Origin: Thermoplasmatales archaeon SW_10_69_26
Lineage (GTDB): Archaea > Thermoplasmatota > SW-10-69-26
NCBI GenBank assembly: GCA_003009755.1
Contig: PXUB01000032.1
Location: forward strand, 62,001 to 126,000
DNA length: 64,000 nucleotides
Direction of reading: 5' to 3'
Part shown: piece after piece, positions 4,714-61,123 of the stretch
Numbering within the stretch: position 1 is the stretch's first letter
Layout of the letters: the number at the start of each line of letters is the position of its first letter
The notes under the pieces: model-generated
The model's input: only the letters and a program-made list of their open reading frames with translations
Told to the model about the DNA's origin: nothing
Databases searched by the model: none
Position numbers and translations under genes: made by a program

Positions 4714-4727
4714 CCGTTTTGAATGGG
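4714..4727 (+). promoter_or_regulatory. Candidate TATA-box promoter of the tRNA-Arg array
   Basis: CCGTTTTGAATGGG is the only A/T-rich box in this GC-rich stretch. Its centre lies about 30 bases before 4751, where the first tRNA-Arg-like 5' end begins, which is the normal TATA-to-start distance in archaea. A similar box (CGTTTGAAGG) lies about 25 bases upstream of the secreted-protein start at 18,624. Confidence 0.45.
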
Positions 4728-4750
4728 GAACGGCTACCGCCGCTGCTACC

Positions 4751-5096
4751 GGGCGGGTAGCCGGGCTTGGATGTTCCTGCGCCCTTCGGGCGTACTCGCT
4801 GGGGACCGGGACGGTCCCTCGCAGGCGACGGCTTTCGGTGCCGAACCGAAGGTTCCATGGCGCCCGTCTCGTTCACACGCCACGCACTCTGGGCGGGTAG
4901 CCTAGCTTGGATATTCGTACGCCCTTCGGGCGTACTCGACCGAGACCGCCTCCGGCGCGCTCGGTCAGGCGACGGCCTTCGGAGCCGACCGAAGGCCGTA
5001 TCAAGGACCACACGATACGCACCTTCACCCTGGGCGACGGCCTTCGGAGCCGACCGAAGGCCGTATCAAGGACCACACGATACGCACCTTCACCCT
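4751..5096 (+). repeat. Fragmented tRNA-Arg copies (5' and anticodon parts) with hairpin inserts
   Basis: Two decayed copies of the tRNA's first half are visible. Copy 1 has the acceptor/D-arm at 4751-4772 and the anticodon arm at 4823-4843; copy 2 has them at 4891-4912 and 4967-4987. In both, about 50 bp of hairpin-forming sequence separates GGAT from AGGCGACGG, exactly inside the D arm (intact form GGATAAGGCGACGG). A perfect 65-bp tandem duplication follows (4971-5035 and 5036-5100), each unit starting with the anticodon arm. The final GGGC of the second unit is also the first four bases of the intact tRNA. Confidence 0.85.
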
Positions 5097-5171
5097 GGGC
5101 GGGTAGCCTAGCTTGGATAAGGCGACGGCCTTCGGAGCCGTAGATCAGGGGTTCGAATCCCTTCCCGCCCG
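5097..5171 (+). tRNA. tRNA-Arg (anticodon TCG)
   Basis: A complete cloverleaf can be drawn. The acceptor is GGGCGGG with CCCGCCC, then unpaired G at 5171. The D arm is GCC...GGC. The anticodon stem is ACGGC/GCCGT with loop CTTCGGA, giving anticodon TCG. The T arm is AGGGG/CCCTT around TTCGAAT. CCA is not encoded and there is no intron. It sits in the middle of the fragment array, downstream of the candidate promoter at 4714 and with no convincing box of its own, so it may be processed from a longer transcript. Confidence 0.93.
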
Positions 5172-5525
5172 TACCGCGAAGAGGAAGGGATGAGAACCCC
5201 CTGGGGTTCGTGCTGAGATCCGGTGGAGATCGCTCGGATCTCAGCAGAGTACGAGGCGAGCAGAGCGAGCCTCGTACGGAAATCCCTTCCCGCCCGTACC
5301 GCGAAGAGGAAGGGATGAGAACCCTTGGGTTCGTCCCGAGAGACGATTCAACCGTGCGTCTCTCGGGAGAGGACGGATCTCTGATCCGTCCGGAAATCCC
5401 TTCCCGCCCGTACCGCGAAGAGGAAGGGATGAGAACCCTTGGGTTCGTGCTGAGGCGCGGTGGAGATGGTCGCGTCTCAGGAGACCCCGGATCTCTGATG
5501 CGGGCGGAGGTCCCCTTCCCGCCCG
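5172..5525 (+). repeat. Tandem tRNA-Arg 3'-end repeats interleaved with hairpins
   Basis: The tRNA 3' end AATCCCTTCCCGCCCG (5156-5171) recurs at 5281-5296 and 5395-5410, and in diverged form at about 5511-5525, a spacing of 114-125 bp. Each unit continues TACCGCGAAGAGGAAGGGAT, then a remade T-arm start ending GGGTTCG, then one or two perfect hairpins, then the next AAATCCC. The inserts therefore interrupt the T loop between TTCG and AATCCC. Hairpins are at 5212-5245, 5249-5277, 5335-5367, 5371-5391, 5451-5479 and about 5487-5505. No protein is encoded. Confidence 0.85.
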
Positions 5526-41433: not shown

Positions 41434-43900
<2,467 letters not shown>

Positions 43901-44048
43901 GTTGCTCGGCTGATCCGGAAGTCCGCTCGCTCCACCGCTTCGGGGGTCGCTTGCGTCCTTCCGGATGCCGGACGAACGCTCGACGTTGCGGGTCTCGCGT
44001 TCGTCCTCTCCGCAGACCGGCCTCTCCAGCGGCATGCCGGTCTGCGGA
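43901..44048. repeat. Triple-hairpin array between gyrB and its duplicated tail
   Basis: Three perfect palindromes stand one after another: ATCCGGAAG with CTTCCGGAT (43913-43921 and 43958-43966), GGACGAACGC with GCGTTCGTCC (43970-43979 and 43997-44006), and CCGCAGACCGGC with GCCGGTCTGCGG (44010-44021 and 44036-44047). Stems are 9, 10 and 12 bp. There is no open frame that matters. The style resembles the hairpin arrays at 5212-5505 and 11738-11916. Confidence 0.8.
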
Positions 44049-44151
44049 CCAAGCCGAGCAGCTGTTCGACGTGCTCATGGGTGACGAGGTGGAGCCTCGC
44101 CGCGAGTTCATCATGGAGCACGCGGATGAGGTCCAGGTGCTGGACGTTTGA
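44049..44151 (+). pseudogene. Second copy of the gyrB 3' end
   Basis: The 103 bases align without gaps to the end of gyrB (43798-43900), 251 bases upstream. About 11 differences are present over the last 100 bases: nine are synonymous and two are conservative (Lys to Glu, Leu to Met), and the stop codon TGA is kept. Such a pattern means the segment diverged while under selection as a GyrB C-terminus. It is probably the tail of a replaced gyrB allele, or an old duplication made when the hairpin array arose. Confidence 0.85.
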
Positions 44152-44599: not shown

Positions 44600-44969
44600 A
44601 CTGCCGGCTGTGCTTGGGTTAAGCTCTCGCTCGGCCTCAGGCGGTGAAAGCGCGGAGCCGAGACGAAGGAGTAGCCGGAGGCTACTTCGATGTCGGAGAC
44701 CGTGGGACCGGAAATGTTCTGGTGCGCCGGTCTGAGGCGGGCAATCTCGTTGTCGCCCCCTGAGATCTCGCCCGTCCGAGCGATCTCAGGCACGCCCGGA
44801 TCTCTGATCCGGGCAGTGTCCGTCGAAAACCCACAGGGGGTTTCCTTCCTCGGGCTCCGCGACCTTGCCTCGCTCCCTCGCACGAGCCCTCCGGGCTCGT
44901 ACTCTCGGCAGACCGTGCCCGGTCTCCCGAGACCGGCGCGAGAGCTTAAGCAAAACACGTCCGGCAGTT
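44599..44969 (+). mobile_element. MITE-like element 2, inserted in two overlapping stop codons
   Basis: A 371-bp element begins GACTGCCGG and ends CCGGCAGTT, flanked by TA at 44597-44598 and 44970-44971. Its left end matches, over more than 60 bases, the reversed right end of element 1 (21241-21665), and its right end matches element 1's left end. Inside are hairpins, including TGAGATC/GATCTCA (44761-44789) and GCCCGGATC/GATCCGGGC (44794-44814). It carries no gene, and probably moves with the transposase of the IS630-type element. Confidence 0.82.
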
Positions 44970-45532
44970 TAGTCCTTCTTGTACGGCGGCTCGGTCATCG
45001 CTTCCTCGGTCCCGTTGGCAGCATCCGAGCTGGTGATCTCCTTCAGCCTGCGGATGCCGTCGACCTCGCCGACGATGCGAGCCACGGGATCAGGTACCAG
45101 ATCCTTCCAAGTCTGCCTGTCCTGATGCATGAGCTGGCGGATTTGGGTCGCCTCGTAGCGCTCGCGGTCGACGAGATCGAACTCCCGGACCTCGTAGCCG
45201 GCCTCGTGGAACAACCGCTTCGGCAGCGGGTTGTTCATGTAGCAGACGTCGAAGGGCGGGCAGAACGTCTCGACGTGGCTCACCCACAGCGAGTTGCGGT
45301 GGATGTCCGGCACCGGGATGATCGTCGCGTGGATGTCTCGCTCGACGAGGCTCTCGTCCAGCATCCACACCCGCTCGCCGGCCGTGAACGGATTCTCCTT
45401 CGTGTGCGAGTACTGGCTGGAGCCGACCACGATCACCAGGCGGTCCACGTCGGCCACGATCTCCTCGATCACGGAGAGGTGGCCAAGGTGGGGCGGCTGG
45501 AACCGACCCAGGAACATGCCACGCGTGGGCAT
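44969..45532 (-). CDS. nadM: Nicotinamide-nucleotide adenylyltransferase (archaeal type)
   Basis: The 187-residue enzyme makes NAD+ from NMN and ATP. The start is taken at the ATG at 45532 (MPTRGMFLGRFQPPHLGH), four codons inside the longest frame. The HxGH motif in GRFQPPHLGH binds ATP; SQYSHTKENPFTAGERVWML and ATQIRQLM (the ISSTxxR-like segment) complete the fold. There is a C-terminal extension of about 20 residues beyond the archaeal core (SSDAANGTEEAMTEPPYKKD). Its stop TAA is formed with the last base of the MITE. Confidence 0.93.
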   Translation of the reverse strand: MPTRGMFLGRFQPPHLGHLSVIEEIVADVDRLVIVVGSSQYSHTKENPFTAGERVWMLDESLVERDIHATIIPVPDIHRNSLWVSHVETFCPPFDVCYMNNPLPKRLFHEAGYEVREFDLVDRERYEATQIRQLMHQDRQTWKDLVPDPVARIVGEVDGIRRLKEITSSDAANGTEEAMTEPPYKKD

Positions 45533-59395: not shown

Positions 59396-61123
59396 ATGCC
59401 CTCGTCCAGCGTGATCGATCCTCGACCCGGGGACGACGAGAACTGGTACCGCGAGGACCCGCCCTTGCAGCAGCTGCTGGCTCTACACGTTGACGAGGCC
59501 ACGCTGGGAGCCGCCGAGCACCGGCTCGACGACCTCGGCGAGCTGGCGCCGGCCGACCTGGACCGGTGGGCGCGCGAGGCCGACCGCCACGAACCGACGC
59601 TCGAGCGCCGATCCCCGACGGGCGAACGCGTGGACCGCGTCGACTTCCATCCCGCCTACGAGAACCTGCGGCTGGCCGCGCGCATCAACGGCGTGTTCAC
59701 CGCCAGCTGGCACGAGATGGGCGAGGCCGAGCGCGCCCCGCGAGCGCTCACGTTCGCGCTGGGCTACCTCTACGCGCAGGCCGAAGCCGGCTACTACTGC
59801 CCGGCCTGCATGACCGACGGGGCCGCCTTCGTGCTCGACCGCCACGCCCCCGAGCCGCTGGCCGAGCGCTTCGTCCCCCGCCTGGTCAGCCGGGACCCCG
59901 ACGAGGGGATCGAGGGCGCCATGTACCTGACGGAGAAGGAGGGGGGTTCCGACGTGGGCGCCAGCACGCGCACCCGAGCCCGGCAGGCCGAGGACGGCAC
60001 CTGGCGCCTGACCGGCGAGAAGTGGTTCGCCTCCAACTGCACCGCCGAGGTCGCCATGGCCCTGGCGCGCATGCCCGACGGCGAGGAGGGCACCGAAGGG
60101 CTGGGCCTGTTCCTCGTTCCGCGGCACCTGTCCAACGGCTCCCCCAACCCCGGCCTCCACCTCGAGCGGCTCAAGGACAAGCTCGGCGTCCAGAGCATGC
60201 CCACCGGCGAGATCGTGCTCGACGAGGCCCACGCCCACCTCGTCCAGGGCGCCGGCTCCGGGTTCAAGGCGATGGCCGAGATGGTGAACCTCTCCCGCCT
60301 GTACAACGCCGTCGCCAGCGTCGCGGTGGCCCGCCGGGCCCTGCGCGAGGGCCAACGCGCCGGCCGCCAACGCGAGACCTTCGGCCAGCCCCTGCACGAG
60401 CACGCGCTGTTCCTGCGCGACCTCGTCGAGCTCACCGTCGACGTCGAGGGCGGCCTCGCCTTCACGCTCGACCAGGCCGAGGTCTTCGACCGCTGGGCCG
60501 AGGGCGAGGAAGACGCCCGCGCCCCGCTGCGGATCCTGACCCCGTGCGCGAAGGCGATGACCGCCAAGCTCGGCGTCGCGGCCGCCAGCGAGGGCTGCGA
60601 GCTGCTGGGCGGGCAAGGCTACATCGAGGAGTACGTGACCCCGCGCCTTTTGCGCGACGCCCAGGTCTTGCCGATCTGGGAGGGCACGACGAACATCCAG
60701 GCGCTGGATCTGCTGCGCGCCGTCGCCCGGGACCGGGCGCTGCCCGGCTTCCTCGCCCACAGCTCGGCCCGGTTGGCCGAGGCCGAGGCCGAGGGCCACG
60801 AGGGGCTCGAACCCGCGATCGCTCGCGTCCGCGAGGGGTACGAGCGGATCGAGCAGGCCGGCGAGCGGCTGGCCTCCGTCGACCGCGATACAGCGGAGGC
60901 GATGGCCATCGATCTCACGCGGGACGCCTACCACGTCCACGCCGCCGCGCTGCTGGCCCGCCGAGCCGCCCACCACCCGGACGACGATCGAGCGCGCGAG
61001 GTGGCCCACCTGTATGCGGCCCGCCACGTCGCCGAGGACCGCAGCCTCGGCCGACGCGCGGTCCGGCAGGCGCTGGCCGACCACGGGACCGAGATCGCAT
61101 ACCCAGCCACGTCACACAGCTAG
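59396..61123 (+). CDS. Acyl-CoA dehydrogenase, AidB-like
   Basis: The 575-residue flavoprotein shows the acyl-CoA dehydrogenase core: YLTEKEGGSDVGAS (the FAD/substrate loop, near residues 180-193), LTGEKWFASNC, GLGLFLVPRHL, and late in the protein LLGGQGYIEEYVTPRLLRDAQVLPIWEGTTNIQA with the usual catalytic-base region. The first 160 residues contain a YYCPACMTDGAAF segment typical of AidB/isovaleryl-CoA-type relatives. It probably desaturates a branched or long acyl-CoA. A CCTTTTCGG box at 59360 favours the ATG at 59396 over the one at 59381. Confidence 0.92.
   Translation: MPSSSVIDPRPGDDENWYREDPPLQQLLALHVDEATLGAAEHRLDDLGELAPADLDRWAREADRHEPTLERRSPTGERVDRVDFHPAYENLRLAARINGVFTASWHEMGEAERAPRALTFALGYLYAQAEAGYYCPACMTDGAAFVLDRHAPEPLAERFVPRLVSRDPDEGIEGAMYLTEKEGGSDVGASTRTRARQAEDGTWRLTGEKWFASNCTAEVAMALARMPDGEEGTEGLGLFLVPRHLSNGSPNPGLHLERLKDKLGVQSMPTGEIVLDEAHAHLVQGAGSGFKAMAEMVNLSRLYNAVASVAVARRALREGQRAGRQRETFGQPLHEHALFLRDLVELTVDVEGGLAFTLDQAEVFDRWAEGEEDARAPLRILTPCAKAMTAKLGVAAASEGCELLGGQGYIEEYVTPRLLRDAQVLPIWEGTTNIQALDLLRAVARDRALPGFLAHSSARLAEAEAEGHEGLEPAIARVREGYERIEQAGERLASVDRDTAEAMAIDLTRDAYHVHAAALLARRAAHHPDDDRAREVAHLYAARHVAEDRSLGRRAVRQALADHGTEIAYPATSHS

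Follow-up and report, generated by a model that had tools for sequence, protein, structure and literature searches.

The E. coli repeats covered by the RtT family (rttR; RF00391) were originally described as 178-bp tyrT repeats. At the tyrT and tyrV loci of strain K-12, the tRNA is followed by a spacer, an inverted T arm (GGATGAGAA / GGGTGAGAACC), the motif GGTTCG, several hairpins and a second tRNA 3' end, and this plan is repeated in tandem; each unit ends in AATCCTTCCCCCACCACCA, and the first unit downstream of tyrV bears the annotation of a 171-nt sRNA, rttR, whose end is at the second CCA. Of the 5426 complete E. coli genomes, 4680 have RtT, with a strain-variable copy number (0 to 4 annotated units at the locus across sampled strains); in ST131, tRNA-Tyr is directly followed by other genes. 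The RNA is described as a product that tRNA transcripts release, with a link to amino-acid limitation, and it is conserved in Pasteurellaceae, with Northern blot signals in Actinobacillus (PMC4986893). No paper explaining the origin of the tyrT tRNA-end repeats was found in the literature searched.

Several mobile systems share some of these traits. Integron attC sites and cassette arrays comprise inverted arms around variable hairpins, whose structure is kept as the sequence changes, and they are arranged in tandem. Integrative elements residing at tRNAs rebuild the end of the tRNA gene, of which a partial copy remains in a displaced position, and tRNA fragments are known footprints of islands (PMC9897764). 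Family-2 casposons mostly insert in tRNA genes as well, and the casposase of A. boonei integrates beside tRNA-Pro, where it reads a TCAAATC motif and duplicates about 14 bp (PMC6614799).

The window analysed here is a whole stretch of 64,000 nt from the genome of Thermoplasmatales archaeon SW_10_69_26 (hereafter G000; an assembly of 2.8 Mb in 49 contigs, 95% complete, with a few masked stretches). Its longest local direct repeats form an array at tRNA-Arg(TCG), the sole other repeat above 20 nt being found at gyrB. Around the intact tRNA, the array has two broken 5' copies, a 65-bp tandem repeat free of mismatches and three repeats of the 3' end, which is more than chance would give: the 13-mer of the 3' end, CCCTTCCCGCCCG, occurs four times in the window vs none in 100 shuffles. 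The parts of the array are as follows:

4717-4724, + strand: AT-rich box TTTTGAAT, the candidate native TATA box, 34 nt upstream of the outermost 5' copy (7 of 8 positions A/T, background mean 4.0)
4751-4880, + strand: broken 5' copy 1, with tRNA positions 1-22 (diverged), D-loop hairpins and an anticodon-arm copy (4824-4843) with inverted arm; fold z -1.6
4891-5032, + strand: broken 5' copy 2, with tRNA positions 1-23 (exact), two hairpins, and an anticodon-arm copy (4968-4988, tRNA positions 24-44) plus its inverted copy; fold z -3.5
4968-5097, + strand: 65-bp tandem repeat, 100% identical (4968-5032 and 5033-5097), holding the anticodon arm, the inverted arm and a box TATCAAGG (5064-5071)
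5097-5171, + strand: intact tRNA-Arg(TCG), 66.7 bits
5172-5296, + strand: 3' unit 1, with spacer, inverted T arm (5183-5199), hairpins (5211-5246 and 5249-5277) and 3' end copy (5281-5296); fold z -7.9
5297-5410, + strand: 3' unit 2, on the plan of unit 1 with different hairpin sequences, and 3' end copy (5395-5410); fold z -5.2
5411-5525, + strand: 3' unit 3, the most diverged, with the last 3' end copy (5513-5525) followed by a pyrimidine-rich flank CTTCCTCAG like that of unit-free tRNAs; fold z -1.6

The initial annotation had described the intact tRNA with its two broken 5' copies, the perfect 65-bp repeat carrying the anticodon arm and the three 3' end repeats, and all of them are found at these coordinates, the match of the third 3' repeat spanning 13 nt only. 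It had also placed the breaks inside tRNA loops, as is the case: in both 5' copies hairpins break the D loop and the anticodon arm resumes beyond them, and the 3' copies begin in the T loop. Its "only promoter-like box" is indeed situated before the first copy, and the best AT-rich box of the region is this one; it is not the only one, since a weaker box, TATCAAGG, lies at the usual distance (33 nt) upstream of the intact tRNA, within the unit directly before it, with an AT-richness about that of the average box of unit-free tRNAs; a single transcript may or may not span the whole array, as the initial annotation had suggested it might. A TATA-like box, TTATATCA, is also present in both copies of the 5' unit of tRNA-Arg(CCT) (upstream flank of L046), in the loop of a long hairpin. 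A split, permuted or intron-containing tRNA needing the broken parts is ruled out by the presence of the intact gene. Elsewhere in the window (60460-60555), ARAGORN calls a tRNA with no normal anticodon that Rfam does not call, and which is probably false.

Each 3' unit is a gene-less segment of about 95-130 nt with a constant order: the tRNA is followed by a short spacer, the T arm copied in inverted orientation, the 5' T strand GGTTC, two to four hairpins and the piece of the tRNA that runs from the T loop to the end. The inverted copy, which was absent from the initial annotation, pairs with the final tRNA piece, so that the unit is closed by a single stem around several hairpins. As read directly from the sequence, the 5' units are the mirror of this plan (5' end piece, hairpins, inverted copy, spacer, tRNA). 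Within the window array, a 44-nt block is identical across three tRNA-unit junctions and the intervening hairpins differ; the folds of 3' units 1 and 2 are far stronger than those of their shuffles, and unit 3 is decayed.

This layout is that of the RtT repeats, and the statement of the initial annotation that no named system has it was mistaken. Like RtT, the window units lie downstream of a tRNA, whose 3' end each of them repeats at its own end. On the other hand, the archaeal units occur at many tRNAs and at protein genes, have mirrored 5' counterparts and carry other hairpin sequences. The Rfam RtT model aligns over its full length to unit 1 (5169-5299) with a weak score of 17.8 bits, under the 45-bit cut-off, and none of 31 archaeal genomes gave an RtT match of at least 45 bits, the E. 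coli control being above it. From the match in layout with the repeats beside E. coli tRNA-Tyr, we consider that both probably share one mechanism.

The arrangement is widespread in the genome. A copy of at least 13 nt of their own sequence lies just downstream of 14 of the 40 tRNAs, compared with 13 of 1560 controls in which tRNAs and flanks were swapped. The 3' part is found downstream in 14 of 39 tRNAs (swapped, 5/1482) and the 5' part upstream in 5 of 39 (swapped, 3/1482), the reverse placement hardly ever occurring. The 3' copies start in the T loop and stop exactly at the last base of the tRNA. Inverted arms are specific for the tRNA that they adjoin, with a complementary run of 10.9 vs 5.8 nt, not reached in any of 2000 permutations. 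Chance and artefact are thus rejected, by the swapped controls and by the independent genomes described below. Downstream of several tRNAs (L039, L058, L061 and L062) there is a second family of structured repeats, of about 150 nt (CTCCCGTCGCCAG ... TTGTCAGC).

The 57 distinct hairpins have stems that are mutually unlike (2.65 of 8 positions identical) yet self-complementary (6.9 of 8 paired; swapped, 2.7), and double changes are seen in 16 of 25 consensus stem pairs. Stem mismatches divide 24:16 between G-U and A-C, with no wobble excess and thus no clear signal of RNA-level selection on the unit stems, the acceptor stems of tRNAs giving 7:0 as a control. The order of hairpins is homologous at unrelated tRNAs (model matches of up to 101 bits), and tandem arrays combine identical linkers with different hairpins. 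In 10 of 26 archaeal units (L047, L052, L054, L061, L063, C14, C29), the inverted T loop reads TGAG rather than TTCG/TTTG (GGATGAGAACC); the E. coli tyrT/tyrV units share this reading, as GGATGAGAAGC or GGGTGAGAACC.

Local direct repeats enclosing an inverted copy were surveyed without bias over 906 kb; most of those found adjoin tRNAs, and others lie at the ends of protein genes. Two of these genes were named from their protein sequences, and we take them to be gyrB and TFB. The former is in the window:

43798-43900, + strand: 3' end of the intact gyrB gene, duplicated downstream
43901-44151, + strand: gyrB unit, with inverted arm (43901-43912), three hairpins and a second gyrB 3' end (44049-44151) that extends to the stop codon; closing stem present in the fold

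The two gyrB ends span 103 nt (34 codons) and differ by nine synonymous and two nonsynonymous changes, which argues that both have served as coding ends, one not being a dead duplicate in decay. They match the related genome G001 at 80 vs 75 of 103 positions, a small gap by which a foreign copy is not clearly marked. The 3' end of the TFB gene is duplicated 166 nt downstream with hairpins in between (L212 815-1037; G000:C22, about 44914-45136), and its copies differ by a synonymous change and by their stop codon (TAG/TAA). The end of a third protein gene is found in an array of five 90-bp units with one hairpin each (L245 5709-6197; G000:C19, about 44.5-45.0 kb). As gyrB and TFB carry such units, the arrangement is not tRNA-specific. 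The initial annotation had named arrays at non-tRNA sites as grounds against its proposal; these genes go part of that way, and they count against a tRNA-specific RNA role, not against insertion. Multi-hairpin arrays in near-exact duplicate are also present between protein genes with no tRNA nearby (L071 440-660 and 4200-4430, G000:C9; L279 16412-16885, G000:C41).

The flanks indicate the side on which the units were added. The 12 nt after unit-free tRNAs contain 8.6 pyrimidines on average vs 6.7 after unit-bearing ones (p = 0.0009), and the 12 nt after the outermost 3' copy contain 8.05, not significantly different from unit-free tRNAs. The normal 3' flank thus follows the outermost copy and not the intact tRNA, so that the units separate the tRNA from its original 3' flank. 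In every array the outer copies are at least as diverged as the inner ones and, wherever the copies are not identical, divergence is greater in the outermost. The displaced flank, this polarity and the recurrence at other genes fit the suggestion of the initial annotation that the locus is a hot spot of repeated insertion at a tRNA.

Within the same class, tRNA end copies were found at 13 of 30 tRNAs in G002, 5 of 24 in G003, 3 of 14 in G004, 1 of 13 in G006 and none of 20 in the fragmented G001; unit content therefore varies among related genomes. Other families included, these relatives keep the inverted-arm design with different hairpin sequences. No event of insertion or excision was seen, nor was a filled/empty orthologous pair found, the nearest genome, G001 (its 20 tRNAs unit-free), being fragmented and of a different genus. 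Downstream of its tRNA-Arg, integrase-like DNA was read by eye; the neighbour genes of the window gave no match at this tRNA, a weak negative as one of the two neighbour proteins was queried out of frame. A covariance model built from G000 (R1) matches 31 places at home and scattered places elsewhere in the phylum (8 of 243 genomes with matches), mostly just after tRNAs; it is tuned to G000 and misses G002, and so understates the spread. When 84,980 species were scanned for the 20-nt inverted-arm palindrome, ten stretches were obtained, nearly all adjoined by a tRNA or a tRNA 3' end copy; among them are stretches of Thermoplasmatota, of a Woesearchaeote, of an alphaproteobacterium and of a Clostridia genome, as well as one from Muproteobacteria, on a contig that is cut off. 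The unit layout downstream of tRNAs is thereby found also in Alphaproteobacteria, Woesearchaeota and Clostridia. In the alphaproteobacterium, a terminator-like hairpin sits between the tRNA and the unit and is part of the duplicated stretch; in the Clostridia genome (L231 1739-1923), matches to Gut-1 RNA (RF01706) occur about 200 nt past a unit. Two exact-pattern scans of viral contigs gave no match, and from phage records came nothing beyond tRNA matches and a single RtT (Salmonella record), with no unit adjoining a tRNA. A literature search, largely of papers outside subscription, found none on the general pattern.

Among known mobile systems, tRNA-resident integrative elements share with the units the regeneration of the end and the displaced partial copy; unlike these elements, the units have no genes, measure about 100 nt, contain an inverted arm and hairpins, and occur also at 5' ends. 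As at an att site, the direct repeat runs exactly to the gene end and the original flank has moved outward; no integrase gene lies between the repeats of these gene-less units. Only three tyrosine integrases were found in the genome, each in a larger element beside a tRNA, with hairpin units at the far ends of those elements. A casposon was rejected as candidate, as its casposase was sought in the genome and no match to Cas1 (PF01867) was found (9 of 14 controls were positive); terminal inverted repeats of casposon type were not seen in the units. As to the target duplication of about 14 bp made by casposons, the end copies measure 13-18 nt at tRNAs but 103 nt at gyrB. REP/RAYT and IS200/IS605 were likewise rejected, no match to the Y1 transposase (PF01797) being found in the genome. 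REP/RAYT and Rickettsia palindromic elements resemble the units as dispersed hairpin modules, some of which lie away from tRNAs here, but the units are tied to gene ends with end duplication. The resemblance to integron attC sites is structural only, as the units carry gene ends and not genes.

Taking these observations together, we lean, with caution, toward reading the window array as a stack of short, gene-less, att-type "end cassettes" inserted at both ends of the tRNA gene. A cassette would enter at or beside the gene end and bring a replacement end, so that the gene would remain whole; the original end would be pushed outward and persist as the broken copy farthest out, which at the 3' side would retain the native 3' flank. 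As a single strand, a 3' cassette (~95-130 nt) would form one closed multi-hairpin fold, which may be the signal for a mobilising enzyme, as in integron attC sites; stems that change yet stay paired, with no wobble excess (24 G-U : 16 A-C), point to such a recognition role. The candidate enzyme would be the tyrosine recombinase of the tRNA-resident integrative elements. Since a double-stranded circle of about 100 nt is hard to integrate, a single-stranded or carried-along route must be assumed. Arrays may grow by repeated insertion or by unequal crossover between identical ends, and the tyrT/tyrV RtT repeats would be the same kind of cassette. The negative results on filled/empty pairs and on viral and phage carriers count against end cassettes. 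So do the retention of RtT in most complete E. coli genomes, its conservation in Pasteurellaceae and its Northern signals, as they suit a function.

These latter data would favour an RtT-type structured RNA, in line with the other suggestion of the initial annotation (a structured RNA locus made of tRNA modules), in which the units belong to the tRNA transcript, form a minihelix like the acceptor/T stem with hairpins, and are excised by the tRNA end-processing enzymes to act as small RNAs or processing aids. The plan of the units equals that of the annotated 171-nt rttR, and RtT is described as freed from tRNA transcripts and linked to amino-acid limitation (PMC4986893); unit folds reach z -7.9, the hairpin stems covary, and the weak full-length RtT match (17.8 bits, cut-off 45) falls exactly on 5169-5299. 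Nonetheless, the recurrence at protein gene ends, the stems with no excess of G-U over A-C, the terminator-like hairpin between tRNA and unit in the alphaproteobacterial case and the unequal unit content of related genomes render this reading rather unlikely as a full account. Both readings may be true together, as a mobile element with a by-product RNA.

It is less probable still that the copies are scars of large elements, each one the attR of a tRNA-resident island that lost nearly all its DNA, with the hairpins as remnant of its right end: tRNA fragments are known as island footprints (PMC9897764) and the three integrase-bearing elements end here in hairpin units, but some 25 remnants, most of them 95-130 nt long with the same inner order, would demand repeated precise deletion, and tandem arrays have identical linkers but different hairpins. 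Replication errors, by which template switching and slippage at hairpin-rich gene ends would copy the end directly and inverted with neither mobility nor function, would account for partial copies of both orientations adjoining their source and for the near-perfect palindromes; we hold them to be very improbable, as hairpin order is homologous in units at unrelated tRNAs (up to 101 bits), boundaries fall exactly at gene ends and both gyrB copies are under coding constraint. The number of contigs (49) and the few masked stretches invite the thought of an assembly artefact, a concern already raised by the initial annotation, which has a negligible chance of being right: the copies have diverged, and the pattern is seen again both in independent genomes and on complete chromosomes of E. 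coli.

The architecture, the target-specific inverted arm, the spread (many tRNAs, several archaeal families and some bacteria), the presence at gyrB and TFB and the displaced flank are features read from the DNA itself. Such repeats as such were already known; what is new is their archaeal form spread over a whole genome, the mirrored units at 5' ends, the cases at protein genes and the connection with RtT. More tentatively than for the end cassettes of the window, and with some doubt, we suggest that the units could represent a class of integrative elements, unrecognised until now and common to both domains, which would lack genes, enter at the end of a gene, be recognised in folded single-stranded form and restore the end at which they enter, with tyrT/RtT as the first known example and this archaeon as a genome-wide outbreak. 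With the design present at a third of its tRNAs, on either side of the gene, and at protein genes too, this genome offers the comparisons needed to tell a mobile element from a processed RNA. In the former case, the units would be a minimal integrative element devoid of genes; in the latter, they would be a tRNA-linked RNA family across both domains.
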